The position numbers were made by a program, and so were the translations under genes. Positions 16,323 to 37,782 of a DNA stretch of 64,000 bases are shown piece after piece. Under the pieces are notes generated by a model. The model saw only the letters and a list, made by a program, of their open reading frames with translations, searched no databases and was not told where the DNA came from. The DNA comes from SAR116 cluster bacterium (lineage in GTDB: Bacteria; Pseudomonadota; Alphaproteobacteria; Puniceispirillales; Puniceispirillaceae): NCBI GenBank assembly GCA_004212735.1, contig SHBD01000001.1:186001-250000 (forward strand). The letters run 5' to 3'. Position 1 is the first letter of the stretch. Each line of letters opens with the position of its first letter.

Positions 16323-16566
16323 GCTGTTCTCCTGGACGGCAGCATCGATTGTGTCTGGCTCGGTTATTGAGCGTATTCGATGGACTGCCTTCTGGGTTCA
16401 TGCTGTTCTCATTGGGTCGGTTTTCTGGATCATCGATGCGGCATGGGGTTGGCATTATGGCGGATGGATGGTGCGCGCCCAGTTCAAGGCTGAAAGCCGC
16501 GAATTGGAGGCGTTCAGCGCTGTTCATGATAAGGACAAAATCAAGTTAGCCATTGACCGCTATTAA
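16321..16566 (+). pseudogene. Fragment of a second Amt transporter gene
   Basis: A frame of 81 codons opening at a TTG inside the T tract of the preceding terminator, without a ribosome site. Its first 50 residues are clearly Amt: 'AASIVSGSVIERIR' and 'DAAWGWHYGGWMV' align with 'TASIMSGSVIERIR' and 'GAAWGWHADGWLV' of the intact amtB next door, at the same spacing, covering about two membrane helices out of eleven. The last 30 residues (from 'RAQFKAESRELEAF') do not resemble Amt. The sequence differs enough from the neighbour to be a paralogue remnant and not a recent duplication. It is unlikely to make a working channel. Confidence 0.75.
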
Positions 16567-16639
16567 GACAGTGCGGCACAGGGGGTGTTCGCGCCTTCCT
16601 GTGTCCATCCCACACCCTCCATCCGTCCTTGGCGTGTAT

Positions 16640-20177: not shown

Positions 20178-20461
20178 TTGCTGCGTCCCCGGGCTCTCGC
20201 CACATCGCGGGCAAGTTCGACCTTGGTGATTTCATGCGTTACCGTGTTGCGGGTTACAACGAGCCAGCTGCGGTCACCCGCCTCATGGTACCAGAGCTCC
20301 TGATGCTCTCCTGCCGGATTGTTCCGCAGATACTGATATTCATAGAATTTGTCGGCAGCTTTTTTGTCCTGCCAATCGGGACGGTCAATCAGATTGGCAT
20401 CGCCAAGATAGGTAAATTCTGCGCTGTCACGCGGGCCGAGAAGGGGATGATGAATAATCAT
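20174..20461 (-). CDS. mgdB: N-methylglutamate dehydrogenase / sarcosine oxidase delta subunit, without the usual zinc cysteines
   Basis: A 95-residue delta-type subunit: 'GPRDSAEFTYLGDANL' at about 9-24, 'YEYQYLRNNPAGEHQELWYH' at about 40-59 and 'RSWLVVTRNTVTHEI' are the family blocks. Known sarcosine oxidase delta subunits bind zinc through cysteines starting with a CPxCG motif at the N-terminus; here that place reads HPLLG and the whole protein has no cysteine, so zinc cannot be bound in the usual way. It lies 20 bases after mgdA and overlaps mgdC. Confidence 0.82.
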   Translation of the reverse strand: MIIHHPLLGPRDSAEFTYLGDANLIDRPDWQDKKAADKFYEYQYLRNNPAGEHQELWYHEAGDRSWLVVTRNTVTHEITKVELARDVARARGRSK

Positions 20462-20481
20462 GGCTTCGCCTCCTGTCTGAC

Positions 20482-21756
20482 CTAGTGCAGGTTCGGCTGT
20501 GCGCCGGACCCTTTTTCGTCAATCATGTAACCGCGCTGGAACCGGTCAAAGCGCAGCTCGGTCGCGGTCTGGTGTGGCTCGTCATTTGCCAGCAGATGGG
20601 CGAACACCCAGCCTGATCCCGGCGTCGCCTTGAACCCGCCATAGCACCAGCCGCCATTGAAATAGAGCCCCTCGATGCCGGTCTTGTCGATGATCGGCGA
20701 GCCATCCATGCTCATATCCATGATGCCGCCCCACATTCGCAAAAGGCGAGCCCGGCCAATCATCGGCATCAGGGCCATGCCGCCCTCGCAGACATCTTCA
20801 ACGACCGGAAGATTGCCGCGCTGCGCATAGGAATTATAACCATCAATGTCGCCGCCAAAGACAAGGCCGCCCTTGTCTGACTGGCTGACATAGAAATGAC
20901 CGGCGCCAAAAGTAACCACGCCCGGGATGATTGGTTTCAGGCCCTCAGAGACAAAAGCCTGCAACACATGGCTCTCGATCGGCAACCGCATGCCCGCCAT
21001 GCTCATCACCTTGCCGGAATTACCAGCAACTGCGACGCCGACTTTCTTTGCGCCGATAAACCCTTTCGATGTCTCGACACCGCTGCATTTGCCGTTCTTG
21101 ATGCGAAAGCCGGTGGCTTCGCAATTCTGGATGATATCGACGCCAAAACTATCAGCAGAGCGCGCATAGCCCCAAGCCACAGCGTCGTGCCGTACGGTGC
21201 CACCGCGCCGCTGGGCAAGGCCACCCTTGATTGGAAACCGGTTATTGTCAAAATTCAGGAACGGACATTCGGCGCGCACCTGCTCGGCAGACAGCAACTC
21301 CGCATCTGCGCCATTCAGTAGCATTGCGTTGCCTCTGCGGCGATAGGCATCGCGCTGGCCGTCGGTGTGGATCAAATTCAAGATACCGCGCTGGCTGACC
21401 ATTGCGTTGTAATTGACGTCCTGTTCCAACCCTTCCCACAGCTTTAGCGAGAATTCATAGAATGGCTCATTGCCGTCAAGCAAATAATTTGAGCGGATGA
21501 TGGTCGTGTTTCGGCCGACATTACCGCCGCCAATCCAGCCCTTTTCGATGACCGCGACTGATGTGATGTTGAATTTGCTCGCCAGATAATGTGCTGTGGC
21601 CAGACCGTGGCCGCCGCCGCCGACAATGATGATGTCATATTCTTTTTGTGGCTCCGGATCCCGCCAGGCTGGTTTCCAGCCGCGATGGCCGGTCAACGCT
21701 TCTTTGATCACCCGCAGACCTGAATACCGCCCGGAGTTTTTTCCTGTCACTCGCAT
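20482..21756 (-). CDS. mgdA: N-methylglutamate dehydrogenase / sarcosine oxidase beta subunit
   Basis: FAD-dependent amine oxidase fold, 424 residues. The FAD-binding 'YDIIIVGGGGHGLATAHYL' is near residue 40; 'GGTVRHDAVAWG' holds the His expected to carry covalent FMN at the beta/alpha interface in this family; the C-terminal 'LYFNGGWCYGGFKATPGSG' is typical. This subunit oxidises the N-methyl amine. I chose ATG 21756 because 'gagagg' precedes it and the length then fits the family; the frame is open to 21843. It is the first gene of mgdABCD and is divergent from the dimethylglycine-dehydrogenase-type gene, with about 340 bp between. Confidence 0.82.
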   Translation of the reverse strand: MRVTGKNSGRYSGLRVIKEALTGHRGWKPAWRDPEPQKEYDIIIVGGGGHGLATAHYLASKFNITSVAVIEKGWIGGGNVGRNTTIIRSNYLLDGNEPFYEFSLKLWEGLEQDVNYNAMVSQRGILNLIHTDGQRDAYRRRGNAMLLNGADAELLSAEQVRAECPFLNFDNNRFPIKGGLAQRRGGTVRHDAVAWGYARSADSFGVDIIQNCEATGFRIKNGKCSGVETSKGFIGAKKVGVAVAGNSGKVMSMAGMRLPIESHVLQAFVSEGLKPIIPGVVTFGAGHFYVSQSDKGGLVFGGDIDGYNSYAQRGNLPVVEDVCEGGMALMPMIGRARLLRMWGGIMDMSMDGSPIIDKTGIEGLYFNGGWCYGGFKATPGSGWVFAHLLANDEPHQTATELRFDRFQRGYMIDEKGSGAQPNLH

Positions 21757-21999
21757 CGCTTGTCCTCTCATCACTGTGATGATGGCGGTGGCCACCGGAT
21801 CGTTAAGTCTGAAATCGGACGATATCATGACAAAGGACGACACCGTTGGCAGAATGAAGTTGGCAAATCTTTCTTTTTGCAGGGTTCAACAACCGAATGG
21901 GCTGTGAAACATAGCTATACCGAAATTGGACAGGTTTGCCCCGGTCGTCAAGAGCCGTTTTGTGTATTTTGTTTCTGAAATACGTTACTGAACATTATT

Positions 22000-22094: not shown

Positions 22095-24536
22095 ATGAGT
22101 GAAGAAATGCAAACCACTGCCCGCGTCGTCGTGATTGGCGGCGGTGTTGTTGGTGCTTCGGTGCTGTATCATCTCACGAAGCTCGGCTGGACGGATGTTG
22201 TTATGCTTGAGCGCTCGGAACTCACATCCGGGTCCACCTGGCATGCTGCCGGTGGGATGCACACCATCAATGGCGACCCGAATGTCGCCAAGCTGCAGCA
22301 ATATACGATCAACCTCTACAAGGAAATCGAGGAGCTGTCAGGCCAGGACATCACACTTCACATGACGGGCGGTGTAATGCTGGCCGCAACTCAGGAACGG
22401 TTTGATTGGCTTAAAGGCGTCTATGCCAAGGGCAAATATCTCGGCATGGATGATCTGGAGATCATTACACCGGAGCGGGCGCATGAATTGCTGCCGCTGA
22501 TTGACCCGTCGCAATTTGTAGGTGCCATGTATGACCCGATTGAGGGCCATGTCGACCCCTATGGCGTGACCCACGCCTACGCGAAGGCTGCGCGCAAGAA
22601 TGGTGCCCAATTCCACACCCACACAAAGGTGGAAAATTTGTCGCAGGACCCTGATGGCACATGGCAGGTGGTGACCAATAAAGGAACGATTGCAGCCGAA
22701 CATGTGGTCAATGCTGCTGGGCTCTGGGCGCGTGAAGTCGGCCGCATGGTGGGTCTTGAGCTGCCCGTGCTGGCGATGGAGCATATGTACCTTCTCACCG
22801 AGGACATGCCGGAGGTGGCAGAAGTGAATGCGGCCACCGGGTCTGAGGTCATTCACGCTGTTGATTTTGATGGTGAGATATATGTGCGTCAGGAACGGGG
22901 CGGCATGTTGATGGGTACCTATGAACGCGCTGGCAAACCATGGGCGGAAAAGACCACCTCCTGGGAGTTTGGTCACCAGCTGCTCGAACCTGACATTGAC
23001 AGGATCGCGCCATCGCTTGAGATTGGATTCCAGCATTTCCCGGCATTTGAGCGCGCCGGCATCAAGCAAATCATCAACGGCCCCTTCACCTTCTCGCCTG
23101 ATGGCAACCCGCTTGTTGGTCCGGTGAAGGGCATGACCAATTTCTGGTCGGCATGTGCTGTCATGGCTGGTTTCAGTCAGGGTGGCGGCGTCGGTCTCTC
23201 GCTTGCCAATTGGATGGTCAATGGTGACCCCGGCTTTGATGTCTGGGCGATGGATGTCAGCCGATTTGGCGATTATACCAGCATGGCCTTTACCAATGCC
23301 CGGGTGCGGGAGAATTATTCACGCCGGTTCTCGATTCGCTACCCGAATGAAGAACTGACGGCAGCCCGTCCATTTTTGACAACGCCCGTCTATGAACGGC
23401 AAAAGGAAGCTGGCGCCCAATTTGGTGCGGCTTACGGGTTGGAAATTCCGCTCTGGTACGCGCCTGAAGGTGTCGTTGATGAATTTTCCTGGCGGCGGTC
23501 AACGGATTTTGATCATGTTGCTGCAGAATGCAACGCGGTCCGCGCCTCGGTCGGGCTTGGCGATACCTCTGGCTTTGCCAAATACAGCATTTCCGGGCCC
23601 GGAGCGCGTGCCTGGCTTGACAAGATGCTGGCAGCCAAAATTCCGGCAAAGGGCCGGATGACTCTGGCACCGATGCTGAAAGAGGATGGCAGGGTCATCG
23701 GTGATTTCTCGCTTGCCACGCTTGCTGATGATCGTTTCCTGATCATCGGTTCTGGTGCCGCTGAGAGCTATCACATGCGCTGGTTCCTCTCGCATTTGCC
23801 AGATGATGGTTTGGTCGATCTGGTCTCACACAATCTCGGTCTCGTTGGTTTAACACTTGCCGGCCCGAATGCGCGCGCTGTGCTGCAGGCCTGCACGGAC
23901 GATGATGTCTCGCATGAAGCGATGAAATTCATGGCTGTGCGCGAAATGGATATTGGCATGGTCCCGGCGATTGTTGGCCGAGTCAGCTTCACCGGTGATC
24001 TTGGGTACGAGATCTGGGTGAAGCCGGAATATCAGTTGAATTTGTTTGACCAGCTGATGCAGGCCGGCGCCGAGCATAATATCAGCCTGTTTGGCTCTCG
24101 CGCTCTAAACGCGCTGCGCCTGGAAAAGAATTTCGGCACCTGGGCGCGGGAGTACCGGCCGATCTATGGCCCCATTGAAACCGGCCTTGATCGGTTCGTT
24201 GCTTATGAGAAGGACACTGATTTCATCGGCCGGACAGGCGCCCATGCTGAGCGCGACTCGGGTGGCACCTTGCGGCTGCGCAGCTTTGTTGTCGCGGCAA
24301 AGGATGCCGATGTCATTGGGGATGAACCGATTTCACATGGTGGCAAGGTCGTTGGCTGGGTAACGTCAGGCGGCTATGCCCATGCTTCGGGTGTTTCCAT
24401 GGCTCAGGGTTATGTGCCAAAAGAGCTTGCAGACGAGGTTGAGGGGTGGGAGATTGAGTTGCTCGATGAACAGCTTGCGGCCACTCTGCAGGCACAACCG
24501 CTCTTTGATGCCAATTCTGGGCGCATGCGCAGCTAG
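22095..24536 (+). CDS. Dimethylglycine dehydrogenase-type FAD/tetrahydrofolate enzyme
   Basis: An 813-residue enzyme with an N-terminal FAD amine-oxidase domain ('RVVVIGGGVVGASVLYHL', 'ERSELTSGSTWHAAGG' with the family's covalent-FAD histidine region), a linker 'GIKQIINGPFTFSPDGNPLVG', and a C-terminal GcvT domain ('GRVSFTGDLGYEIWVKPE', 'RALNALRLEKNFGTWAREY'). This is the architecture of dimethylglycine and sarcosine dehydrogenases, which demethylate secondary or tertiary amines and load the carbon onto tetrahydrofolate. ATG 22095 follows 'ggggggtcaatcac'; the frame runs 53 codons further up. No dimethylamine monooxygenase is present in the window, so dimethylamine or a derived compound is a second possible substrate, by inference only. 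Confidence 0.85.
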   Translation: MSEEMQTTARVVVIGGGVVGASVLYHLTKLGWTDVVMLERSELTSGSTWHAAGGMHTINGDPNVAKLQQYTINLYKEIEELSGQDITLHMTGGVMLAATQERFDWLKGVYAKGKYLGMDDLEIITPERAHELLPLIDPSQFVGAMYDPIEGHVDPYGVTHAYAKAARKNGAQFHTHTKVENLSQDPDGTWQVVTNKGTIAAEHVVNAAGLWAREVGRMVGLELPVLAMEHMYLLTEDMPEVAEVNAATGSEVIHAVDFDGEIYVRQERGGMLMGTYERAGKPWAEKTTSWEFGHQLLEPDIDRIAPSLEIGFQHFPAFERAGIKQIINGPFTFSPDGNPLVGPVKGMTNFWSACAVMAGFSQGGGVGLSLANWMVNGDPGFDVWAMDVSRFGDYTSMAFTNARVRENYSRRFSIRYPNEELTAARPFLTTPVYERQKEAGAQFGAAYGLEIPLWYAPEGVVDEFSWRRSTDFDHVAAECNAVRASVGLGDTSGFAKYSISGPGARAWLDKMLAAKIPAKGRMTLAPMLKEDGRVIGDFSLATLADDRFLIIGSGAAESYHMRWFLSHLPDDGLVDLVSHNLGLVGLTLAGPNARAVLQACTDDDVSHEAMKFMAVREMDIGMVPAIVGRVSFTGDLGYEIWVKPEYQLNLFDQLMQAGAEHNISLFGSRALNALRLEKNFGTWAREYRPIYGPIETGLDRFVAYEKDTDFIGRTGAHAERDSGGTLRLRSFVVAAKDADVIGDEPISHGGKVVGWVTSGGYAHASGVSMAQGYVPKELADEVEGWEIELLDEQLAATLQAQPLFDANSGRMRS

Positions 24537-24582: not shown

Positions 24583-25305
24583 ATGAATATTCTGGTCCTG
24601 CAGCATGCCGAGGCAGAGCATCCCGGTGTTTTCCGCTCATTCCTTGATGAGGACGGGCATAGCTGGACAACGGTTCATCTGTATCGTGGCGACCCTTTGC
24701 CCGAATCCATGGCTGGCTACGATGCGCTCTGGGTGCTTGGTGGCCCGATGGATGTCTGGCAGGAAGATGAAAACCCCTGGCTTGTTGCCGAAAAGACCTT
24801 CATCCGGCGGGCGGTGATGGATGAGGGTTTCCCGTTTTTGGGCTTGTGTCTTGGCCATCAGCTGTTGGCCGAAGTCGTTGGCGGCACAGTTGGGCCAGCG
24901 GCCGAACCGGAGATCGGTGTCCTGCCGGTCAATATGACCGTTGAAGGCGCATCGGGCATTCTTTTTGATGGCATTGACCCGGTGTTTCCGGTGCTGCAAT
25001 GGCACAGCGCGATGGTGACGGCTCTGCCCTCGGACTGCAAGGTGCTGGCGACAACTGACGCATGTCCGGTGCAGGCGTTCAGCTGGCAGACGCGTGCGCA
25101 TGGCGTGCAGTTCCATCTCGAGGTTGAGAGTGACACGGTCGAAAGCTGGGCTGCCATTCCGGAATATGCGGCGGCACTTGATCTGGCGTTGGGGCAGAAT
25201 GGTGTTGAAATAATGCGCACTGCCTGCGCCGACAATGCCGAAAAATTCGCCAGTACCGCCGAACGCTTCTATATCAATTGGATGCAGTGCTGCGCCCAGG
25301 CTTGA
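24583..25305 (+). CDS. Class I glutamine amidotransferase-like protein (GMP-synthase-like)
   Basis: A 240-residue stand-alone class I amidotransferase domain. The nucleophile elbow 'FLGLCLGHQLLAEVVGG' gives a Cys near residue 88 and the partner His and Glu are in 'GVQFHLEVES' near residue 176-180, so the catalytic triad is intact. No synthetase domain is attached. It starts 46 bases after the flavoprotein stop, likely co-transcribed. Family members hydrolyse glutamine or related gamma-glutamyl compounds; in this island gamma-glutamylmethylamide is an attractive but untested substrate. The true partner is unknown. Confidence 0.8.
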   Translation: MNILVLQHAEAEHPGVFRSFLDEDGHSWTTVHLYRGDPLPESMAGYDALWVLGGPMDVWQEDENPWLVAEKTFIRRAVMDEGFPFLGLCLGHQLLAEVVGGTVGPAAEPEIGVLPVNMTVEGASGILFDGIDPVFPVLQWHSAMVTALPSDCKVLATTDACPVQAFSWQTRAHGVQFHLEVESDTVESWAAIPEYAAALDLALGQNGVEIMRTACADNAEKFASTAERFYINWMQCCAQA

Positions 25306-26384: not shown

Positions 26385-27863
26385 ATGGCTACTGATCTGG
26401 AACGTTTTGTCGAGGCTCCGGGCCGCGACGAAAAAATCAAAGAAGTCCGTGAGATGATTGATCGGATGGGGGTTGAGTATCTCTATCTTCAGTTTGTGTC
26501 GATCACCGGCAAGATTATGGGCAAGGGCATCCCGGCCGACCATTGGGAAAGCGTTGCGAAAAAGGGTTTCCAGCTCGTTTATGGCGCGACGGTCAATCTG
26601 TTCACCGACCGCGCAGGTAATTACCTTGGCTACGGACCGGAAGCGGCTGAGCTGATCGGCATTCCCGAGCCTGAGACCTTCATGCAGCTGCCATGGGCGC
26701 CCAAAATTGGACGTTTTTATTGCACCCTGTTCCGCAACCGCGAGGAGAAGCAAAATCCGGGCAGTTACCTGACTGCGGATTCGCGCGGTAATTTGCGCCG
26801 GATGCACGAGGAATTCACTAAGAAGCATAACGGCCTGAAGCTGCGTGTCGGTACCGAGCCGGAGATGATGTGGCTGAAGTTTAATGAGAATGGTCAGCCT
26901 GAAGATGGTTATTCAAAGCCTTACTGTTATCACATCGATCAGTTTGAGAGCCTGCGGCCCGTCACCATGAAAGTGATGGAATATACCCGCAAGATGGGTC
27001 TCGATATGATTCAGGGCGACCATGAGGATGCGCCGGGCCAGCTCGAACTCAACTGGATGTTTGATGATGTGCTGCGTAATGCCGACCGTCTGACAACATA
27101 CCGCCAGATCTGTGCGCAGGTGGCCCGTGAATTTGGCATCTTTGCCTGTTTCATGACAAAGCCGTTCATGGGTGTCTCGGCATCAGGGTGTCACCACAAT
27201 ATGTCGTTGTGGCGCGACGGTGAGGACCAGTTTGTCAAATGCGGCAATGATGAGAACAACCTGCCGGGCATGCGCGAAAACTACATGTATGTCAAAGGCG
27301 GCCATAACACCTTTATGCCAGAGGGTGATGATCCACAGATGCCAAGCAAGGAAGGCCTTGTCGCCATTGGCGGCATTGTCCAGCATCTGCGTGCGCTGAC
27401 GGCGATTGGGTGTTCCACCGTGAACTCATATCGGCGTCTGTGGGATACCGGTTTTTGGGCACCTGTCTTTGCTGATTGGGGCTTCCAGAACCGCACCACC
27501 GGCCTTCGCGTGTCGGCCCCCGGCCGTTTCGAGTATCGTTCGGTTGATTCAATGGTGAACCCGTATCTGATGGGCTCGTGCATTCTGGCGGCGGCTGATG
27601 ACGGCATCGACAACCAGCTGGACCCGGGTGAGCCGGAAGAGCGCAATATTTATGAAGCCATTGAGGCTGGTAAGCAGGTCAAGAAGCTGCCGATGTCACT
27701 GGGTGAGGCGCTCGACGCCCTTGAGGCTGATGAGGTTGTTCGCCGCGGCATGCCGGGCGAGATGTACGGCCTCTATCACGAATACAAATATGACGAATGG
27801 GCGCGGTTTATGTCCACCGTCACTGAGTGGGACAAGGAAAGATACATGGAGTGCCTTCCATAG
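26385..27863 (+). CDS. gmaS: Glutamine-synthetase-like enzyme, probable gamma-glutamylmethylamide synthetase
   Basis: A 492-residue enzyme of the glutamine synthetase fold. Catalytic blocks are present: 'GTEPEMMW' (metal Glu), 'HEDAPGQLELNW', 'SASGCHHNMSLW' (His of the metal site), 'NSYRRL' (ATP/glutamate Arg) and 'YRSVDSMVNPYL'. The C-terminal adenylylation Tyr block of GlnA is absent. Such proteins upstream of mgsABC join glutamate and methylamine with ATP; a true ammonia-using glutamine synthetase or another glutamyl-amine ligase cannot be excluded from sequence. The ribosome site 'aaaggggagaaaata' is strong. It heads the gmaS-mgsABC operon, divergent from gntR. It is longer than GmaS proteins I can recall from roseobacters. 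Confidence 0.72.
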   Translation: MATDLERFVEAPGRDEKIKEVREMIDRMGVEYLYLQFVSITGKIMGKGIPADHWESVAKKGFQLVYGATVNLFTDRAGNYLGYGPEAAELIGIPEPETFMQLPWAPKIGRFYCTLFRNREEKQNPGSYLTADSRGNLRRMHEEFTKKHNGLKLRVGTEPEMMWLKFNENGQPEDGYSKPYCYHIDQFESLRPVTMKVMEYTRKMGLDMIQGDHEDAPGQLELNWMFDDVLRNADRLTTYRQICAQVAREFGIFACFMTKPFMGVSASGCHHNMSLWRDGEDQFVKCGNDENNLPGMRENYMYVKGGHNTFMPEGDDPQMPSKEGLVAIGGIVQHLRALTAIGCSTVNSYRRLWDTGFWAPVFADWGFQNRTTGLRVSAPGRFEYRSVDSMVNPYLMGSCILAAADDGIDNQLDPGEPEERNIYEAIEAGKQVKKLPMSLGEALDALEADEVVRRGMPGEMYGLYHEYKYDEWARFMSTVTEWDKERYMECLP

Positions 27864-27941: not shown

Positions 27942-28877
27942 ATGTGTGGAATTGCAGGAATTATTCATCGCGGGAAAAGCTCGAACGTCGGTCAGGAGAT
28001 GACCTCGATGCTGCGCTCGCTCAAACATCGCGGCCCTGACAGCACGGGTTTTGCTGTCTATGGCGCAAACACCCCTGGCGACTATGTCATGCGTTTTGTG
28101 CTGGCTGAACAGGAAGATATGTCAAAGGGATTTGACATGAAGAAAATCGTTGAGGAACGGCTGGAGCTTGTTGAGGAACGTCTTGCTGAGCATGGCGCAG
28201 AGGTAAAGCACCGCGAATCCGCAACGGATTATGCCAAGCGTTTTATCATCCACCACACAGGTGATACCGAATTGATGGCCCGCCATATCGAAGATATTGA
28301 GGGCGTCGAGATTCTCTCGATGGGCAACTCACTTGAGTTGATCAAGGACCTTGGTGACGCCGATGTGGTGTCGGATCAATATGGCCTTGGTGCCTTTGAG
28401 GGTACGCATGGCATCGGCCATACCCGCATGGCCACCGAATCTGACGTTGATATCCGGTCTGCGCACCCCTACTGGGCGTTTCCCTATAATGACGTATCGG
28501 TCGTGCATAACGGCCAGATCACCAATTACTGGATCATGCGCCGCCAGCTTGAGCGTCAGGGACACCGGTTCATGTCGCATTGTGATAGCGAGTTGCTGGC
28601 CGTCTACACTGCCAACAATCTGGCAAATGGCGTAACGCTTGAGGACAGCATGCGCCGGTCCATTGGGGAAATTGACGGTGTCTTTACCTATCTGGTCGCA
28701 ACGAAGGACCAGCTCGGCATGGCAAAGGATACGATGGCGGCAAAGCCACTGGTTCTCTACCAGAGCGATGATTTGATCGTGATGGCCTCGGAAGAAGTTG
28801 CCATCCGCTCGATCCTGCCTCAGGAAATTGACACGACTGACCCGTATGATGAGGAGGTTTTCGTATGGCAAGCGTAA
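27942..28877 (+). CDS. mgsA: N-methylglutamate synthase subunit A (class II amidotransferase domain)
   Basis: A 311-residue class II (Ntn) amidotransferase. The start is fixed by the need for an N-terminal Cys: 'MCGIAGIIHRG' begins at ATG 27942, although the frame is open 22 codons earlier. Other active-site blocks are 'IGHTRMATES', 'SVVHNGQITNYW' and 'CDSELLAVYT'. In N-methylglutamate synthase this subunit takes the gamma-glutamyl compound apart; the same set in rhizobia is called glxB. Its stop overlaps the mgsB start by 13 bases, showing tight coupling. Confidence 0.85.
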   Translation: MCGIAGIIHRGKSSNVGQEMTSMLRSLKHRGPDSTGFAVYGANTPGDYVMRFVLAEQEDMSKGFDMKKIVEERLELVEERLAEHGAEVKHRESATDYAKRFIIHHTGDTELMARHIEDIEGVEILSMGNSLELIKDLGDADVVSDQYGLGAFEGTHGIGHTRMATESDVDIRSAHPYWAFPYNDVSVVHNGQITNYWIMRRQLERQGHRFMSHCDSELLAVYTANNLANGVTLEDSMRRSIGEIDGVFTYLVATKDQLGMAKDTMAAKPLVLYQSDDLIVMASEEVAIRSILPQEIDTTDPYDEEVFVWQA

Positions 28878-29734
28878 CAGATCAGGAGCTGAAGCAGATG
28901 TCTCAGGAAGAGCGCGTCACCGCGTTTGGCATGCGCACTGAGCAGCTCACAGGCCGTTCCCTCTATATCGAGTTCGAAGAGGATGAAGGGTCGAATTTCA
29001 CCTATCCGTGGGCGCCTGATGTTGATTTCAACAAACGTGTCGAGATTGACGCTGATGAGTTTGATACGACAGGGGCGAACAACAAGATCCGCGAGTTGAT
29101 GGAAGAGGGCTACGGCACCATTGTCATCAAGAATCCGCGTGGCAAGCACAGCCTTGGCGTCGGCATCTTGAGCCGCCTCAATCTAATCATCGAGGGGTCG
29201 ACAGGATATTTTGGTGTCGGCCTGATTGACGGGCCCAACGTCCGTATCAATGGTCGTGTTGGCTGGTCATGTGGTGAAAACATGATGTCAGGCACTGTCT
29301 TGATCGAAAAGAACGCCGGTTCAACCTTCGGCGCCGCAATCCGCGGTGGTGATCTGGTGTGCCGCGGGTCGGTTGGCTCGCGCACAGGCATCGACATGAA
29401 AGGCGGCACGATCATCGTTGGTGGTGATACGGGCGCGCTGTCCGGCTTCATGATGCAGCGTGGCCGCATGGTTGTTTGCGGAAATGCTGGCAAGAATCTT
29501 GGTGACAGCATGTATGACGGCACCATCTATGTTGGCGGCGAAATTCAGTCGCTTGGTGTTGATGCAGTCCCCGCCGAACTCACCCAGCTCGACAAGGACT
29601 GGCTGACGCGCAAATTGTCGCAATACGACCTGATGCCGGAAACGGGTGTTGACCATTTCACCAAGGTCGTTGCCGGTAAACAATTATGGAACTACGACAA
29701 TCTCGAACCAAATGAAAAGAAACTTATCCTGTAA
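28865..29734 (+). CDS. mgsB: N-methylglutamate synthase subunit B (GXGXG domain)
   Basis: A 289-residue protein made mainly of the right-handed beta-helix 'GXGXG' domain that forms the C-terminal part of large glutamate synthases. Repeats such as 'STGYFGVGLIDGPNVRINGRVG', shortened here as read from about 107-128, then 'NAGSTFGAAIRGGDLVCRG' and 'GNAGKNLGDSMYDGTIYVGG', follow one another. It has a structural and channelling role between amidotransferase and FMN subunits. It overlaps mgsA and lies 20 bases before mgsC, whose product completes the split enzyme. Confidence 0.85.
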   Translation: MASVTDQELKQMSQEERVTAFGMRTEQLTGRSLYIEFEEDEGSNFTYPWAPDVDFNKRVEIDADEFDTTGANNKIRELMEEGYGTIVIKNPRGKHSLGVGILSRLNLIIEGSTGYFGVGLIDGPNVRINGRVGWSCGENMMSGTVLIEKNAGSTFGAAIRGGDLVCRGSVGSRTGIDMKGGTIIVGGDTGALSGFMMQRGRMVVCGNAGKNLGDSMYDGTIYVGGEIQSLGVDAVPAELTQLDKDWLTRKLSQYDLMPETGVDHFTKVVAGKQLWNYDNLEPNEKKLIL

Positions 29735-29754: not shown

Positions 29755-31113
29755 ATGCCTGACGGAATTTCAAAAAAGCCTTTGGGGCGTGACGTAAATC
29801 GGCTGGGCAATTCATTTGTCTTTACGCCGCAGGTGATGGACGACATTCACATTAAGTCCGAACTTGGCCGCTACCGTATGCGTGGTTTCTCGCTGTTCAA
29901 GAAAATCCCGCATTGGGATGATCTGACCTTTCTGCCCGGAACGCTGACCCGTTTCGTGATTGAGGGTTACCGCGAGAAATGTGAGACGAAAACAGTGATC
30001 GGTCCACGGGCCAAACGCCCGCTGGAACTTGATATTCCAGTCTATGTGACAGGGATGAGCTTTGGTGCTTTGTCCTATGAGGCAAAGACCGCGCTTGCCC
30101 GTGGTGCGACCATGGCGGGCACAGCAACCTGTTCCGGCGAGGGTGGTATGATCCCAGATGAGCGCCGCTATTCGTCAAAATGGTTCTACCAGTGCATCCA
30201 GTCACGCTATGGCTTCAACCCGAACCACCTCGTTCTGGCTGACGGCTGTGAATTCTTCATCGGTCAGGGCTGTAAAGTTGGTCTTGGTGGCCATTTGATG
30301 GGCCAGAAGGTGACAGATCAGGTCGCTGAAATGCGGTCATTGCCTGCGGGTATCGACCAGCGCTCACCTGCGCGTCACCCTGATTGGCTTGGCCCGGATG
30401 ATTTGGCGCTGAAAATTCAGGAGATCCGGGAAGCAACAGACTGGCAGATTCCGATCCAGCTGAAACTGGGTGCGGCCCGTGTCTATGATGATGTGCGTAT
30501 GGCGGTCAAATGTGACCCTGACAGCATCTATATTGACGGTATGGAAGGCGGTACCGGTGCTGGCCCGCATCTGGCGACAGAAGATACAGGTGTGCCGGGC
30601 ATGGCAGCCATTCGCCAGGCACGCCGGGCGATTGACGATCTTGGCAAGCGTGGTGAGATTTCTCTGATCTATGCCGGCGGCATCAGAAATGGTGCAGATG
30701 TTGCCAAGGCGATTGCTCTTGGTGCCGATGCCATTGCGCTTGGCCATTCGGTAATGATGGCGATGAACTGTAACAAGGACATCGAGGAAGCTGATTTTCC
30801 GAACGAGATTGGTGCCGAGCCCGGCTATTGCTACCATTGCCACACTGGCCGTTGTCCGGTCGGTATTGCCACCCAGGACCCGGCATTGCGCAAGCGTCTG
30901 GACCCTGATGAAGCCGCTGAGCGTGTGTATAACTTCCTGCACACTCTGACCATTGAAGCACAGCTCTTTGCCCGTGCCTGCGGTAAAACCCACCTGCATA
31001 GCCTCGAGCCTGAGGATCTGGCTGCCCTGACGATGGAAGCATCGGCAATGGCGGGCGTTCCTTTGGCGGGCACCAACCACACTGTTGGTGTCGAGGATTA
31101 TCACAAGCTCTAG
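29755..31113 (+). CDS. mgsC: N-methylglutamate synthase subunit C (FMN-binding glutamate synthase domain)
   Basis: A 452-residue catalytic subunit with the FMN-binding (beta/alpha)8 barrel of glutamate synthase: 'VTGMSFGALSYEAKTALARG', 'GGHLMGQKVTDQVAEMR', 'IYIDGMEGGTGAGP' and 'IYAGGIRNGADVAKAIALGA'. A cysteine group in 'GYCYHCHTGRCPVGIATQDP' matches the iron-sulfur site of the family. In the methylamine pathway it reduces 2-oxoglutarate plus the methylamine-derived group to N-methylglutamate. A glutamate-synthase-like role (GlxD) is the alternative. Its stop is 12 bases before the next small gene, with the ribosome site 'taggagg' between. Confidence 0.85.
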   Translation: MPDGISKKPLGRDVNRLGNSFVFTPQVMDDIHIKSELGRYRMRGFSLFKKIPHWDDLTFLPGTLTRFVIEGYREKCETKTVIGPRAKRPLELDIPVYVTGMSFGALSYEAKTALARGATMAGTATCSGEGGMIPDERRYSSKWFYQCIQSRYGFNPNHLVLADGCEFFIGQGCKVGLGGHLMGQKVTDQVAEMRSLPAGIDQRSPARHPDWLGPDDLALKIQEIREATDWQIPIQLKLGAARVYDDVRMAVKCDPDSIYIDGMEGGTGAGPHLATEDTGVPGMAAIRQARRAIDDLGKRGEISLIYAGGIRNGADVAKAIALGADAIALGHSVMMAMNCNKDIEEADFPNEIGAEPGYCYHCHTGRCPVGIATQDPALRKRLDPDEAAERVYNFLHTLTIEAQLFARACGKTHLHSLEPEDLAALTMEASAMAGVPLAGTNHTVGVEDYHKL

Positions 31114-31125
31114 GAGGCCTTAGTC

Positions 31126-31539
31126 ATGGCAGGCACACAGTATCGAGGTTCAGAAATCACTGATGTTGATCAGTTCCTCAAAGACGCAGGCGGCCTTGAG
31201 TCAGAGCGTGAAAAGGAAATCGGCCAGCATATTGGCTACCGCTACGATGTAAATCTGGTTCCAGATTATGACCGTCTGACACCCTTTCTTGCCGAATATA
31301 TGGAAGTCATGGGATGGGATGATCTGAACTGGCTCGAAGATGTTCACATGGGATATGAAGAGGGCATGCCAGCCGTTTTCGACCGCAACATCAATGGCTG
31401 GGTCCGGGTGCCGGACAGTATCAGCCTTCCTGACAACCAGCAGGATCGTGACATGATCGCGCGTGAGCTTCTGGTCAAGTTTCAGATGTCGGAGCGCCAC
31501 CCCCTTGTGGCCCTTCGCAAGGTCTACATGAAATTCTGA
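31126..31539 (+). CDS. Unknown acidic protein tightly linked to mgsC (137 aa)
   Basis: A 137-residue soluble, acidic protein with no Cys, no membrane segment and no motif I recognise. It has aromatic and acid-rich stretches such as 'EYMEVMGWDDLNWLEDVHMG' (about 63-82) and ends 'RHPLVALRKVYMKF'. It follows mgsC by 12 bases with ribosome site 'taggagg', so it is very likely translated from the gmaS-mgsABC transcript. A small accessory, assembly or electron-donor-docking role for the split synthase is possible but purely inferred from position. Confidence 0.72.
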   Translation: MAGTQYRGSEITDVDQFLKDAGGLESEREKEIGQHIGYRYDVNLVPDYDRLTPFLAEYMEVMGWDDLNWLEDVHMGYEEGMPAVFDRNINGWVRVPDSISLPDNQQDRDMIARELLVKFQMSERHPLVALRKVYMKF

Positions 31540-31647: not shown

Positions 31648-32253
31648 ATGAGTGATGTGAGCGAAATGTTTGGCGTTGACAGGGCATCCCTTGCCCTGAA
31701 GGACGCGTTTTTACGCTGGCAATGCCGTGTCCGCATGATGGCGATGCGTGACAAGCAGGGACGACCTGATGACGCTGTGATGCCCGATCTGTTTTTGCCT
31801 GGCGAGAGCGAGGCGATGGGGCAGATCATCACGGTGCTGTCAAAATCGCCGATGTTCAGCAAGACACCAGAACTCAAACATATGGTCATGCGCACCAATG
31901 ACCCAGCGCAGCGGCGCGAAAAAGCGCTGCAGCTGTTCTCGGAAACCTATTTCCAGAGATCACGTGAATTTTCTGACGTCCTGACCGCCAGCTTTGCGGG
32001 CAAGACAGCTGCTGTCGAAAAAATTCTGGCAGCACAGAAATGCAGGCTGCATTTTTCCGCCTATAATCAGACGTTTGAAATTGCCTGCACAGTCTCTGAA
32101 CTCGAGTCCACGGATCCGATGTATCAATCGACATGGTGGCACAATCACCTGTTCAATCCTGACATGTCCTCGTCGGCGGTCGTCGTTGCTTTTGCGCCCC
32201 TGTGGTCAGACAGCAATGCGGAGCCACCGGTGTTGACAGCGGCACAACGCTAG
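31648..32253 (+). CDS. Unknown protein between mgs operon and tmm (201 aa)
   Basis: A 201-residue protein I cannot assign. The N-terminal half is helical and Met/Arg-rich ('ALKDAFLRWQCRVRMMAMRD', 'MFSKTPELKHMVMRTNDPAQ'); the C-terminal half has a block with Cys, Trp and His ('FEIACTVSELESTDPMYQST' then 'WWHNHLFNPDMSSSAVVVAF'). No signal peptide or membrane segment. It lies about 110 bases after the previous unknown gene and 70 bases before tmm on the same strand. Position suggests a role in TMA/TMAO or N-methylglutamate metabolism; the sequence does not show which. Confidence 0.65.
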   Translation: MSDVSEMFGVDRASLALKDAFLRWQCRVRMMAMRDKQGRPDDAVMPDLFLPGESEAMGQIITVLSKSPMFSKTPELKHMVMRTNDPAQRREKALQLFSETYFQRSREFSDVLTASFAGKTAAVEKILAAQKCRLHFSAYNQTFEIACTVSELESTDPMYQSTWWHNHLFNPDMSSSAVVVAFAPLWSDSNAEPPVLTAAQR

Positions 32254-32322
32254 ACAAGGCTAGGGTCAGGTAAACAAATCATTAATACTCCGTAAAAAAG
32301 GAGTGTACCTGGGGAGGTAGTG

Positions 32323-33663
32323 ATGACAAAGAAAGTGGCAATCATTGGGGCAGGGCCGAGCGGACTTGCACAATTGCGTGCTTTTCAGTCAGCGGCCAGC
32401 AAAGGCGCTGAAATCCCGGAAATTGTGTGTTTCGAAAAACAGTCGGATTGGGGTGGTCTGTGGAATTACACATGGCGCACCGGCGTTGATGAGCATGGCA
32501 ATCCCTGTCACGGCTCCATGTATCGGTATCTATGGTCGAACGGTCCCAAGGAAGGGCTTGAGTTTGCCGATTACACCTTCGAGGAGCATTTCGGCAAGCC
32601 AATCGCCAGCTATCCCCCTCGCCCGGTGCTTTTTGACTACATAAAAGGGCGCGTGGAAAAAGCCGGCGTTCGCAAATATATCCGCTTCAACACCAATGTG
32701 CGTGATGTGCGCTACGATCCTGCCTCGGCGAAATTCACTGTCACCGCGCGTGACGGCCTGAGTGATACCGAAACCATCGAGGATTATGACCATGTGATTG
32801 TTGCATCGGGACATTTCTCGATGCCCAACGTTCCCTATTATGAGGGGTTTGAGAGCTTCAATGGGCGCATTCTGCATGCCCATGATTTTCGTGATGCACG
32901 TGAATTTGCCGGGCAGGACATCCTGATTCTGGGAACCAGCTATTCGGCAGAGGATATCGGGTCGCAATGCTGGAAATATGGCTGCAAGTCGGTGACCGTT
33001 GCCCATCGCACTGCGCCAATCGGCTATGAATGGCCGGACAATTGGCAGGAGGTTCCCGCACTGGTCAAAATTGAAAAGGGCGTTGCCCATTTCAGGGACG
33101 GCCAGTCAAAGAAGGTTGACTCGATCATCCTTTGCACCGGTTACAAGCATCATTTCGGCTTCCTGCCGGACAGCCTGCGCCTGAAAACGGATAATCGTCT
33201 GGCATCGTCAGACCTCTACAAGGGTGTGGTCTTCAACCCGAATCCGGCGATGTTCTACCTTGGCATGCAGGACCAATGGTACACATTCAATATGTTTGAC
33301 GCGCAGGCGTGGTATGTGCGCGATCTCATCATGGGGCGAATTGCACTTCCCGATGCAGCGGCCATGGAGGCTGACGTGATCGCCCGGCAAAAAGCCGAAG
33401 ACGCTCTGGAAGATGATTATGCCTGCATTCGCTACCAGGGCGCCTACACAGGCGAGCTGATTGATGAAACCGATTATCCCACCTTCGACATCGATGCTGC
33501 CAATCAGGCATTCATCGAATGGAAGGGCCACAAGAAAAAAGGGATCATGACATTCCGCGATCATGGCTATACTTCGCCAATGACCGGAACACTTGCCCCA
33601 GCGCACCACACTAGCTGGGTCGAGGCTCTGGACGACAGTCTGGAGTCGTATCTGCAAGAATAA
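32323..33663 (+). CDS. tmm: Trimethylamine monooxygenase (flavin-containing)
   Basis: A 446-residue class B flavin monooxygenase that oxidises trimethylamine to TMAO with NADPH and oxygen. The FAD motif 'GAGPSGL' is at 9-15, the FMO fingerprint FxGxxxHxxxF is '[11 protein letters not shown]' at 179-189, and the NADPH motif '[10 protein letters not shown]' is at 204-213. Long blocks such as '[12 protein letters not shown]', '[18 protein letters not shown]' and the C-terminal '[15 protein letters not shown]' agree closely with my memory of characterised bacterial TMA monooxygenase (Methylophaga/Methylocella). ATG 32323 is chosen over GTG 32320; 'ggggagg' precedes it. An ACTCC/GGAGT hairpin at 32287-32304 lies in the leader. 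Confidence 0.95.
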
Positions 33664-33711: not shown

Positions 33712-34662
33712 ATGTCCAAGACACTGAAAACCGCTGTTATCGGAGCCGCGTTAGCGGCTTTTACGGCACTGCCAATGGTGGCTTCTGCTGACAGCAGTGG
33801 CACAATCAAAATTCCAACACATAACTGGTCAAGCCAGCTTGTCGGCGCCGAAGTTGTCGGCGAATTGTTCAAGATGGTGGGTGAAGAGATCGAATATGTC
33901 CCAATGGACAGCCAGACCGTCTATCAGGCAATGGCTGATGGCGATATCGATATTGTTCACGAGGTTTGGGAAGGTGCGTTTGGCGCCTCTTTTACCAAGT
34001 CTCTTGAGACGGGCAATGTCATCGACCTTTTGACACATGATGCCGTCACCCGCGAAGACTGGTGGTATCCCGAATATATAGAGGAAGTCTGCCCGGGTCT
34101 GCCTGACTGGAAGGCGCTGGACAAATGTTCAGATATGTTTGCCCGTGCCGATTCTGGTGGCAAAGGCGTGTTCATTGGCGGTCCGGTTGACTGGCTGAAG
34201 CATGATGCCGAAAAGGTTGAAGCTCTGGGAATGAATTTTGTTGTCCGTAACGCTGGTTCTGCTGGTGCTATCTGGGCAGAGCTTGATGCGGCAGCAGCGC
34301 AGAAGAAGCCGGTTGTGATCTTCAATTGGTCACCAAACTTCATCGGCGCAAAATATGCCGGTAAGTTTGTCGAGTTCCCGACCCATGATCCAAAATGTAC
34401 ATCTGACGCATCATGGGGTGTGAACCCGAATGCGCTTTATGACTGTGGCAACCCTGCCACCGGTTATCTGAAAATTGGCGTGAACAAGGATTTCGAGAAG
34501 AACCATCCAAAGGCATTCAAGGTTGCCCAGCAGATGAACTTCTCTGGTCCTGACATCGACAAGATGGCCAACTATGTTGACACAGATGGTCTCGAGGTTC
34601 CAGAAGCCGCGCAGCAGTGGCTGAACGACCATGAGTCAAAATGGAAAGAGTGGATTAAGTAA
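33712..34662 (+). CDS. tmoX: TMAO/betaine-type ABC transporter substrate-binding protein
   Basis: A 316-residue periplasmic binding protein of the OpuAC/ProX type. A signal peptide ends at about 'VASA' (residue 26), ahead of 'DSSGTIKIPTHNWSSQL'. Several Trp and Tyr residues (for example in 'HEVWEGAFG', 'DWWYPEYIEE', 'NWSPNFIG') could form the aromatic cage that binds a quaternary or N-oxide amine. Next to tmm and followed by an ATPase and permease, it fits TmoX of TMAO importers; choline or glycine betaine are alternatives. The ribosome site is 'gggaggtaataa'. A terminator-like hairpin separates it from the ATPase gene. Confidence 0.85.
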   Translation: MSKTLKTAVIGAALAAFTALPMVASADSSGTIKIPTHNWSSQLVGAEVVGELFKMVGEEIEYVPMDSQTVYQAMADGDIDIVHEVWEGAFGASFTKSLETGNVIDLLTHDAVTREDWWYPEYIEEVCPGLPDWKALDKCSDMFARADSGGKGVFIGGPVDWLKHDAEKVEALGMNFVVRNAGSAGAIWAELDAAAAQKKPVVIFNWSPNFIGAKYAGKFVEFPTHDPKCTSDASWGVNPNALYDCGNPATGYLKIGVNKDFEKNHPKAFKVAQQMNFSGPDIDKMANYVDTDGLEVPEAAQQWLNDHESKWKEWIK

Positions 34663-34683
34663 TCCCTCCTGACTTGCCGTTAC

Positions 34684-34721
34684 GGCCCAACCGGATTTTC
34701 GGTTGGGCCATTACTGTTTTT
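34684..34721 (+). terminator. Intercistronic hairpin between tmoX and tmoV
   Basis: Arms GGCCCAACCG (34684-34693) and CGGTTGGGCC (34700-34709) pair perfectly over 10 bp, followed after 'attactg' by seven T. It probably stops part of the transcripts, giving more binding protein than ATPase and permease. Confidence 0.8.
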
Positions 34722-34741
34722 TTGATTTCAGGCGTATCGTG

Positions 34742-35782
34742 ATGACTGACGAAAAGAAAATTTCCTGCCGCAATGTCTGGAAACTCTACGGAGATGACCC
34801 GGCGGGGTTTTTGGCGTCACACAACAACAAGCCCACCACCCAGGCGATTCGTGATGGCAATTACATTCCGGCTGTTCGCGATGCCACGATCGATGTCCAT
34901 ACCGGTGAAATTCTTGTCATTATGGGGCTCAGCGGGTCTGGCAAATCAACGCTGGTTCGCTGCATGTCAAAACTCATCGACCCGACGGGTGGTGAGATTG
35001 ATTTTGATGGCACTGATCTGCTGCGTGCCAGCAAAGAGGAATTGATTGAAATCCGGCGTCATAAGATGGGCATGGTCTTTCAGAATTTCGCCCTTTTGCC
35101 GCACCGCAACGTCATTCAGAACATCGCTTTTCCGCTTGAGGTGCAGGGGATCAACAAAGAGGAGAGAGAGGCCAAGGCCCGCGAGATCATTGAACTGGTT
35201 GGTCTTGAAGGGCGTGATAAATATTTCCCGCGTGAGCTGTCTGGTGGCCAGCAACAGCGTGTCGGCCTTGCCCGTTCGCTTGCGGCTGAGCCTGATGTCT
35301 GGTTCCTCGATGAACCATTTTCGGCACTTGATCCACTGATCCGCAAGGAAATGCAGAACGAATTTCTGCGGCTGCAGAACATGTTGCATAAAACCATCGT
35401 GTTTATCACGCATGATTTTGACGAGGCCATCCGCCTGGCAGACCGGATCGCCATCATGTTTGAGGGGGAGATCGTTCAGGTTGGCACGGCCGAGGAATTG
35501 ATCACCAATCCGGCAACGGACTATGTGGCTGAATTCACAAGGGACATTCCCCGGGCAAAGCTGTTGTCGGTGGCCAGCCTGATGCAGCCTACCAAAAAGA
35601 AAAAGGCAGGAAAGCTCAGCGTCAAAGCAAGTGATCGGATTGCCTCGGTGGCGTCGGCGGTGCTGATGCAGCCGGATGACGTCACGGTGCTGGATGATGC
35701 GGGCAAGATTTGTGGTGAGCTGTCGCGTGATCAGGTCGCCGCCATCCTGTTCGACACTGAAACCACCTCGGCTGGAGCCTGA
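34742..35782 (+). CDS. tmoV: TMAO/betaine-type ABC transporter ATP-binding protein
   Basis: A 346-residue ProV-like ATPase. Walker A 'GLSGSGKST' is at 62-70, the signature 'LSGGQQQRVGLARSLA' at about 160 and Walker B 'DVWFLDEPFSALD' just after. The N-terminal extension before the Walker domain and the C-terminal tail with 'RIASVASAVLMQPDDVTVLD' (a CBS-like remnant) fit glycine-betaine-type importers. I start at ATG 34742 (MTDEKKIS); the frame is open 13 codons higher, inside the upstream hairpin region. Two bases separate its stop from the permease start. The name follows the ProVWX convention (V = ATPase). Confidence 0.87.
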   Translation: MTDEKKISCRNVWKLYGDDPAGFLASHNNKPTTQAIRDGNYIPAVRDATIDVHTGEILVIMGLSGSGKSTLVRCMSKLIDPTGGEIDFDGTDLLRASKEELIEIRRHKMGMVFQNFALLPHRNVIQNIAFPLEVQGINKEEREAKAREIIELVGLEGRDKYFPRELSGGQQQRVGLARSLAAEPDVWFLDEPFSALDPLIRKEMQNEFLRLQNMLHKTIVFITHDFDEAIRLADRIAIMFEGEIVQVGTAEELITNPATDYVAEFTRDIPRAKLLSVASLMQPTKKKKAGKLSVKASDRIASVASAVLMQPDDVTVLDDAGKICGELSRDQVAAILFDTETTSAGA

Positions 35783-35784
35783 TC

Positions 35785-37782
35785 ATGGCTGGTCCGGTTC
35801 CGGCGACTGAGCAGATGCCATCACGCCTGAACATGATGGCACCGATGATCCCCTTTGCCCTCCTGTGGCTGTTCAAGCCGTTGCTGCCGTCTTGGGCGAT
35901 TGTCCCACCCAAGAGCTGTCTTGGTGGCTGCGGGACGATCGAGGGTCTGATCCCATTTGTTGACTGGGTTAATGCCGGGATACAATTTCTGCGCTCCTAC
36001 GAAATCTTTGGCCTGTTCACTTTCCGTGATATCACGCGTTCGATCGCTCGGGGCATTGATGTGCCGCTCGATTTCACCGAGGCGCTCCTCTACAAGGGAT
36101 TTGGTGCCGTTGGCCCAATGCCATGGGTGATGATCGTTGGTCTGATGATTGTTTTCGGTCTCTATCTTCGCGGCTGGCGGTTGGCGCTGCTTGGCGGCGG
36201 CACCTTCTTCTACCTCTCGCTGTTTAGCCTGCGCGGGATCTGGGAGTTGTCGATGAAGACATTGTCGGCCATCGCCGTGTCGGTGCCGCTTGCCGCCATC
36301 ATCGGTCTGCTGATCGGCATTGCGGCGGCAAAGCGCCAGAGAATTGCCATGGTGGTTGCGCCGATGCTCAACATCCTGCAGTCATTGCCGCATTTTTCCT
36401 ATCTGATTATTGTCGCCATCTTCTTTGGTGTCGGGGCAAAGGCCGGTGTTATTGCCACGGTGATTTTTGCCTTTCCCCCAATGACCCGTCTGACAATGCT
36501 GGGTCTGCGCGAGATTTCCAGCGAAGTTCGTGAGGCTGGGATCATGGCTGGCTGCACCCGTTGGCAGATGCTCTACAAGGTCGAAATCCCCTCGGCACGT
36601 TCGGCGCTGATGCTGGGTGTCAATCAGGTGATCATGCAATGTCTTGCCATGGTGGTAATCGCCTCTTTCATTGGCCAGCCCGGGCTTGGCCATGATCTGC
36701 TTACGCGGCTGCAAAATCTGCGCCTTGGCCAGGCCTTTGAGATTGGCGTTGCCGTCGTCCTGATCGCCGTGACTCTTGATCGCTTCAGCCAGGCACTTGT
36801 CGAAAAGGAGCCGGAACGAATCAAGGATGGCCCGCTCTGGGTGCGGCATCCCTATCTCTGCGCCATAGCGTTGATCATTGTCGGCTCGATCGGTCTTGCC
36901 AGCCTGACAGAGGCCGCCGTGCAATTGCCAAAGGAATATACCGTCTCGATCTCCAGCTATCTGGATGCGATGATCAAATTCATCACAACCTCGCTGTTTA
37001 CCCCGCTTGGAATCCTGCGTGATTTTCTGCTTGTCTATGTGTTCATGCCGACCAAGGCGACCTTCCAATCGATGCCGTGGGTGGCAGTGATGGCGCTGAT
37101 CGGGTGTGTCGGCTGGAAACTTGGTCGCTGGAAGCTGGCTTTGACCGTCATGGCCTTTGTTTTCTTCATTGCCGCCTCGGGCTATTGGGTGCGTGCCGTG
37201 ATCACGCTCTATATGGTCTTTGTGGCTTTGTGCATTTGCGCCGCCATTGGCATTCCACTGGGAATCTGGGCGGCAAAAAAGGACCGGCGGACGAAATTTG
37301 TTCTGGGCTTGTGTGATACCTTTCAGACCTTCCCATCTTTCATCTACCTCCTGCCAGCCGTGATGCTGTTCCAGATCAGTGATGTTTCGGCAATCTTCGC
37401 CATTGTTGTCTATGCCACCATTCCGATCACCCGCTATACGATTTTTGGTCTGCGCAACGTTCCAAGCCAGATTGTTGAGGCGGCGCTGACCTCGGGATGC
37501 ACTGAACGCCAGATGCTGTGGAAGGTGCGGATGCCGATGGCCTTTCCCGAAATGCTGCTTGGCCTCAACCAGACGCTGATGTTTGCGCTGTTCATGGTGA
37601 TGATTGCCGGCTTTATCGGCACGGTTGACCTCAGCCAGGAAATTTTTCGGGCGCTGTCATTCAATGATGGTGGCAAGGGTCTGGTGATCGGGCTGTGCGT
37701 CTCCCTGATCGGCCTGACGGCTGACCGTTTGCTGGTCGAATGGTCGAACCAGCAGAAAAAACGCCTCGGTTTCGCCAATTAG
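35785..37782 (+). CDS. tmoW: TMAO/betaine-type ABC transporter permease, two fused permease domains
   Basis: A 665-residue inner-membrane protein with two binding-protein-dependent permease domains in tandem. Each has its EAA-type coupling loop: 'EVREAGIMAGCTRWQMLYKV' in the first half and 'QIVEAALTSGCTERQMLWKV' in the second, both followed by the usual membrane helices. Many osmolyte importers use a single permease as a homodimer, so this fused form supplies both halves in one chain. The gene's last four bases overlap the end of the minus-strand ftsX-like gene (37779-37782). Confidence 0.88.
   Translation: MAGPVPATEQMPSRLNMMAPMIPFALLWLFKPLLPSWAIVPPKSCLGGCGTIEGLIPFVDWVNAGIQFLRSYEIFGLFTFRDITRSIARGIDVPLDFTEALLYKGFGAVGPMPWVMIVGLMIVFGLYLRGWRLALLGGGTFFYLSLFSLRGIWELSMKTLSAIAVSVPLAAIIGLLIGIAAAKRQRIAMVVAPMLNILQSLPHFSYLIIVAIFFGVGAKAGVIATVIFAFPPMTRLTMLGLREISSEVREAGIMAGCTRWQMLYKVEIPSARSALMLGVNQVIMQCLAMVVIASFIGQPGLGHDLLTRLQNLRLGQAFEIGVAVVLIAVTLDRFSQALVEKEPERIKDGPLWVRHPYLCAIALIIVGSIGLASLTEAAVQLPKEYTVSISSYLDAMIKFITTSLFTPLGILRDFLLVYVFMPTKATFQSMPWVAVMALIGCVGWKLGRWKLALTVMAFVFFIAASGYWVRAVITLYMVFVALCICAAIGIPLGIWAAKKDRRTKFVLGLCDTFQTFPSFIYLLPAVMLFQISDVSAIFAIVVYATIPITRYTIFGLRNVPSQIVEAALTSGCTERQMLWKVRMPMAFPEMLLGLNQTLMFALFMVMIAGFIGTVDLSQEIFRALSFNDGGKGLVIGLCVSLIGLTADRLLVEWSNQQKKRLGFAN

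Follow-up and report, generated by a model that had tools for sequence, protein, structure and literature searches.

The 137-aa protein X137 occurred strictly together with, and directly adjacent to, the FMN subunit (subunit C) of a three-gene, glutamate synthase-like enzyme, and we lean towards X137 being a dedicated small subunit of that synthase, translated directly behind the FMN subunit. We call this X137-linked module type A, a paralogue of the class of the characterised N-methylglutamate synthase MgsABC with its ligase GmaS, which we call type B. In the window, the whole stretch of 64,000 nucleotides that was analysed, X137 (31126-31539, plus strand) began with ATG at 31126, ran for 137 codons and ended with TGA at 31537-31539. 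Twelve nt separated its ATG from the stop codon of the upstream subunit C gene (TAG, 31111-31113), and direct reading placed an AGGAGG ribosome site (31112-31117, plus strand) across that stop codon, 8 nt 5' of the ATG, so both the 12-base spacing and the strong ribosome site described in the initial annotation held. G+C at codon positions 1, 2 and 3 was 0.65, 0.32 and 0.58, a coding pattern, and X137 is a real gene under strong conservation.

A scan of named genomes yielded 460 X137 relatives, from which the best 80 were retained by similarity to X137; in 80 of 80 of these loci (the best 80 of 460) X137 lay directly 3' of subunit C on the same strand. Most of these 80 nearest named relatives (best 80 of 460) would belong to Rhodobacteraceae. 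Because the loci had been selected for similarity to X137, genome samples free of that bias were also taken. Among 385 alphaproteobacterial genomes, 38 carried type A C (defined in this sample as a subunit C at no less than 78% identity), and X137 was present in 37 of the 38, always adjoining C on the same strand, and absent from the remaining 347, i.e., those without type A C. The sole miss (G232) had a contig that ended ~110 nt past C. The best C match of G131 and G347 was on another contig, and a C fragment stood immediately 5' of X137 in both (L102, L106). A sample of 350 gammaproteobacterial genomes, from the class to which a bin named Granulosicoccaceae belongs, held type A C in 17 (one as two fragments), with X137 in 17 of 17 and in none of the 11 genomes carrying paralogues only. 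The order of Methyloligella (382 genomes) had type A C in 25 genomes and X137 in all 25, one of which was the sample centre, picked because X137 was present. These three samples may have genomes in common; X137 was never found away from C in any of them, and genomes found with only the ~52%-identical, type B-like paralogue of C had no X137. The initial annotation had taken tight linkage to a split, three-subunit synthase as a sign of a fourth subunit or assembly factor and had named beforehand, as evidence against it, orthologues lying mostly away from the synthase genes; orthologues did not lie mostly elsewhere, and linkage to a split glutamate synthase-like enzyme is stronger than was supposed.

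Median gaps between C and X137 were 13 to 15.5 nt, with a distance of at most 100 nt in 147 of 151 locus pairs and a ribosome-binding-site-like string before X137 in 140 of the 151 (some genomes repeated). No natural fusion of C and X137 was noticed among the loci. Locus L134 was considered as a possible fusion and rejected: an in-frame TAG lies between the two, and X137 begins at a later ATG. Mirror trees do not single out C as the partner of X137; correlations with X137 across 64 named loci were r = 0.50 for C, 0.42 to 0.48 for the ligase, A and B, and 0.45 for the downstream gene orf201, and across 62 sample loci B (0.66) ranked above C (0.60). The cluster was found in 2 of 398 genomes of a phylum-wide sample and in 1 of 61 genomes of the window's own family, a rarity that suggests it was probably gained by transfer.

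Upstream of X137 on the plus strand, the window encoded a glutamine synthetase (GS)-like ligase of 492 aa (26385-27863; profile and alignment); subunit A, a class II glutamine amidotransferase with a Cys2 nucleophile (27942-28877; Pfam E 1.7e-19); subunit B, a 289-aa protein with a GXGXG domain (28865-29734; Pfam E 3.1e-15); and subunit C, with an FMN/glutamate-synthase domain (PF01645) and a CxxCxxxxCP motif (29755-31113; Pfam E 7.9e-91). The amidotransferase with its N-terminal Cys, the GXGXG domain and the FMN domain were thus on separate genes (Pfam), as in a split glutamate synthase-like enzyme. The Cys nucleophile of subunit A occurred in 38 of 39 aligned rows, the remaining row having no letter at that position. 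Type A C had the three-Cys motif CxxCxxxxCP[VI]G in every one of 187 locus copies (genomes repeated). All 37 aligned type A ligases had Trp in place of the GS flap Glu (Trp358 in the window). GmaS of Rhodovulum has Trp300 at the flap position, according to the available portion of its description (PMC7948447), and two type B ligases read ATWAPN at the flap. The ligase position aligned with the ammonia-binding Asp50', where the alignment is uncertain, had Asp in 29 and Asn in 7 of the 37 rows, with one row unaligned. Against TIGR03105 (type III glutamate-ammonia ligase; cut-off 469.6 bits), the window ligase scored 317.5 bits, below the cut-off, and a type B ligase 651.7 bits.

The initial annotation had called the upstream neighbour mgsC of the known MgsABC; instead, subunit C was a paralogue, 53% identical to the MgsC of two type B clusters. 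These references, the annotated clusters of Paracoccus aminovorans and Ruegeria conchae, adjoin dimethylamine monooxygenase genes, and the window was 29 to 30% identical to them in the ligase, 29 to 32% in A and 39 to 40% in B. A tree of 50 C proteins, one of them a distant row on a very long branch, placed 41 X137-linked proteins on one side of a branch with support 94/95. For Methylobacterium extorquens DM4, the available part of the published account (PMC6237917) names the best database match of each protein: for GMAS a 432-aa type III ligase, for MgsC a 442-aa protein, for MgsA a GlxB-type protein of 300 aa and for MgsB GlxC of 225 aa. It also lists consecutive gene tags for mgsC and gmaS and reports that mgsABC alone gave N-methylglutamate in P. 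putida; we assigned this set to type B by those published best matches. The order mgsABC-gmaS is likewise found on a plasmid of P. aminophilus in the available text of PMC4543880, and we put this organism with type B by gene order. The accessible part of PMC5023235 gives tags for mgsC and mgdA without a gap in M. universalis FAM5, which may be of either type. A search of 72,556 plasmid records at E <= 1e-3 found no X137; window C matched 262 plasmid records, all at less than 60% identity, 138 of which were Rhizobium. The lack of X137 in these records, together with the P. aminophilus plasmid cluster as far as PMC4543880 describes it, supports the split between type A and type B. On the published clusters, the plasmid data, the 29 to 53% identities and the C tree, we assigned the window module to type A, a paralogue of the characterised N-methylglutamate synthase class. 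What survived of the proposed link to MgsABC was the split three-subunit synthase; identity with the known MgsABC did not, as sequence (29 to 53% identity), gene order and length all differed. A converse reading, with the ~52% paralogue as an unrelated GlxD and the window set as the true N-methylglutamate synthase, was overturned by the plasmid records and published clusters. An assignment of R. pomeroyi SPO1554-1560 to type A was dropped, SPO1557 being fhs-1 in the available portion of PMC4744692.

Like the type A module, MgsABC with GmaS (METDI2324-2327 in M. extorquens DM4) combines a three-domain split synthase with a GS-like ligase, has Trp replacing the Glu of the GS flap and is set in a methylated-amine neighbourhood. 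The two differ in gene order, mgsABC-gmaS versus mostly ligase-A-B-C-X137, and X137 is absent from MgsABC with GmaS; subunit B is ~225 aa versus 289 aa in type A and the ligase ~432 aa versus 492 aa, both type B lengths being those of best matches in the available text of PMC6237917. GltB, the large subunit of NADPH glutamate synthase, has amidotransferase, FMN and GXGXG domains in common with type A (Pfam), and type A subunit C matched a GltB structure at E 2e-31, but type A is split over three genes and no X137-like part was recognised in GltB. The cysteine spacing of GltB is unlike that of type A C. The split, glutamate synthase-like set of rhizobia, which we take to be named GlxBCD-GlnT, resembles type A in pairing split subunits with a type III GS. 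It represents the under-60% class of the 262 plasmid records, belongs by sequence with type B and had no X137 in the plasmid records searched.

X137 belonged to no known family, as the initial annotation had supposed. Pfam, NCBIfam and PADLOC gave no match for it, and the best PHROGs hit was only at E 0.072; Pfam searches with 41 diverse members returned two matches, in one member each, with a best E of 0.083. A local PDB-profile match to a single protein, Toxoplasma TLAP2 (best E 0.006), was taken as chance. We found no description of X137 in the open-access literature, subscription papers lying outside this search. An alignment of 41 diverse members had 45 invariant columns (gaps tolerated in at most a tenth of rows), of which 23 were polar or charged, and the invariant charged residues included D66, E71, D72, H74, D86 and R87. 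The core was conserved from about residue 36 onward, and the N-terminal tail was variable and sometimes lysine/alanine-rich; a lysine/alanine-rich N-terminal extension of ~20 residues was seen at loci L096, L097 and L105. The window protein was acidic and soluble by composition (pI 4.6, GRAVY -0.56), without any recognised cofactor motif and without Cys, which was absent from 50 of 51 members and present in one.

From 40 genomes we took the stretch of up to 20 kb that surrounds the type A module, and in these neighbourhoods median identity to the window was 85.5% for C (n=40), 76.0% for X137 (n=40), 68.1% for the ligase (n=36), 67.3% for B (n=39) and 64.8% for A (n=38). X137 was thus better conserved than subunits A and B in the 40 neighbourhoods. 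Other loci agreed, with medians of 86.5% for C (n=45), 75.3% for X137 (n=38) and 67.5% for B (n=42), and in 65 complete named loci, a set biased towards X137, the medians were 85.7% (ligase), 75.2% (A), 82.7% (B), 93.1% (C) and 88.3% (X137). Such a level of conservation fits what may be a tight interface or an active site. Predicted alone, the X137 structure had a pLDDT of 72.3, with moderate confidence from residue 48 on; a Foldseek search with this model returned nothing at E <= 0.001, and the best VIA match had Z 2.4 and an rmsd of 5.8 across 54 residues. When C and X137 were modelled as a single read-through chain, with an input alignment of type A relatives only and no type B, the result (pLDDT 56.7, pTM 0.59) was too poor to judge contact.

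Of the 40 neighbourhoods, 37 contained the type A ligase; stretches L209 and L234 stop before the ligase position, and in L246 the ligase lay behind X137, not in front. In the window X137 was followed by orf201 (31648-32253, plus strand), of unknown family (best Pfam match DUF1488 at E 0.11). In 78 of 80 named loci (best 80 of 460) this gene either followed X137 or lay on the opposite strand, and it was frequent but not universal in the diverse neighbourhoods (25 of 40); its copies were 31 to 60% identical, conservation far below that of X137. A ~446-aa FAD oxidoreductase of the DAO kind, weakly SoxB-like, occurred in 28 of 40 neighbourhoods (e.g., L216:3841-5178), and in 26 of the 28 it preceded the ligase on the same strand by at most 700 nt. 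Of the 80 named loci (best 80 of 460), several of which end too early, 30 had this gene; it was absent from the window, and the window's own genome had no close copy (best 26%). The 40 neighbourhoods also included a GntR-type gene (21), an Amt-like gene (19), a type B GmaS at 56% identity or above (7) and formate-tetrahydrofolate ligase (5), and their GcvT-like matches were weak. The window encoded the trimethylamine monooxygenase tmm (32320-33663, plus strand; NCBIfam NF058570, 810 bits against a cut-off of 675), but a link to trimethylamine is not general, as tmm was found in only 1 of 40 neighbourhoods. Behind it were three genes of a betaine/choline-type ABC transporter (33712-37782, plus strand; profile matches), which presumably stands in place of tmoXVW. 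Also in the window were four mgdABCD/soxBDAG-like genes of the heterotetrameric sarcosine-oxidase type (16643-21843, minus strand; soxA and soxB above cut-offs, soxD and soxG below) and a Tdm-like fusion of FAD oxidoreductase and GcvT, identified by profile match far under the Tdm cut-off (22095-24536, plus strand). The neighbourhood genes suggest a pathway of ligase, synthase, dehydrogenase and C1 steps that acts on an N-alkyl compound.

Following the known logic of glutamate synthase and N-methylglutamate synthase, the type A synthase probably takes an alkylamine off a gamma-glutamyl-amide and transfers it to 2-oxoglutarate. The ligase, a GS-like protein or, in one genome, a canonical GmaS, would turn the alkylamine into the gamma-glutamyl-amide. 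This amine is most likely methylamine or a close relative; methylamine is favoured by genome G287, which has a canonical GmaS before type A and mgd genes after it. Subunit A would then cleave the gamma-glutamyl-amide by hydrolysis via Cys2, and the released amine would go to subunit C, where FMN chemistry would couple it to 2-oxoglutarate to form an N-alkylglutamate that nearby Mgd-type or single-chain FAD enzymes could oxidise. X137 would bind to C, or where A, B and C meet, and either complete the complex or gate it. We infer the contact between X137 and C, the amine substrate, the reaction and the gating; since type B works without X137, the chemistry in general needs no such protein. A broader and more tentative possibility is that X137 marks a second, unstudied amine route via glutamate, running beside the N-methylglutamate pathway with a split synthase of its own that has an obligate extra subunit. 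The hosts of this route may be marine and methylotrophic Proteobacteria, and it would usually include a separate ligase and often a separate single-chain FAD dehydrogenase. Its substrate may be an amine with an unexplained fate, for example dimethylamine where bacteria have no Dmm; X137 may then represent a novel type of synthase subunit, one that fits glutamate synthase to a bulky amine.

Type A could also be a second form of N-methylglutamate synthase with X137 as its fourth subunit, a reading compatible with the others that we consider doubtful. It draws on the methylated-amine neighbourhoods of type A and on G287 (L210), where a single stretch (5659-19697) contained GmaS, type A A-B-C-X137, a carbon-nitrogen hydrolase, orf201 and mgdABC, with the canonical GmaS (57% identity) at the place of the type A ligase; this stretch is possibly an N-methylglutamate pathway built on a type A synthase. 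Type B GmaS stood beside type A in G287 and, at 56% and 60% identity and next to a complete type A module, in G266 and G1025 (L232, L248). Searches of these three genomes, of a kind that overlooked a broken type B copy in G000, turned up no type B MgsC. Against this, type A usually comes with its own ligase, no X137 occurred among the plasmid records, and the studied synthases of M. extorquens and P. aminophilus, as far as the available parts of their descriptions go, belong with type B. Co-occurrence of the two modules argues the same way: the window's own genome had type B mgsC fragments (82 to 83% identity) at the starts of two short contigs (C56:1-591 and C9:3-92; L262, L264), from which the organism probably carries both type A and type B modules, and type B-like C was also present in 18 of the 38 type A genomes of the alphaproteobacterial sample, a lower bound because broken copies were missed. 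In the small genomes G090 and G394 (L231, L233), type A and type B modules were neighbours within 20 kb, and an Amt gene and a type B GmaS lay there too.

Two further explanations would place X137 outside the mature synthase. An assembly or maturation factor for type A C, for instance one that loads FMN or a presumed Fe-S cluster and then departs, would suit a small, acidic protein, soluble by composition, whose gene adjoins C and was not found with the type B class sharing the same cofactor domain. We regard this as unlikely, since type B C proteins at L161 and L163 have the same Cys motif without X137 (our script missed the motif in L162 and L182), X137 is conserved above subunits A and B, and 50 of 51 members have no Cys with which to hold a cluster. 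X137 might instead work on its own, as a small enzyme or a regulator that handles an intermediate of this pathway, but that is distinctly unlikely: no catalytic family matched it in Pfam or NCBIfam, and it was always beside C, never apart, in the genomes searched. Its 45 invariant columns (23 polar or charged) are nonetheless much for a mere scaffold, and the invariant charged residues would suit an enzyme as well. We prefer the reading of X137 as a dedicated type A synthase subunit.

A large pool of marine nitrogen is bound in methylated amines, and consumers of methylamine are traced with gmaS as a marker. To judge from its sequence, the type A synthase is an unstudied relative of a known methylamine enzyme, and its module is easily taken for gmaS-mgsABC, so that an annotated step may be misread. 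Since the module has an obligate fifth protein, an amine-turnover step in widespread bacteria may lack assignment; in the genomes examined, the presence of X137 separated type A from type B modules. Further genes were seen close to the module. A class I glutamine amidotransferase (24583-25305) lay near it in the window. Relatives of this gene recur around the module in many named loci, and hydrolysis of gamma-glutamyl-amides could be their role. In a Ruegeria locus, a carbon-nitrogen hydrolase gene (PF00795; L032:8419-9267) lay between X137 and orf201, and a gap the size of a PF00795 gene separated X137 from orf201 in many Rhodobacterales loci, whereas the window had no such gap.
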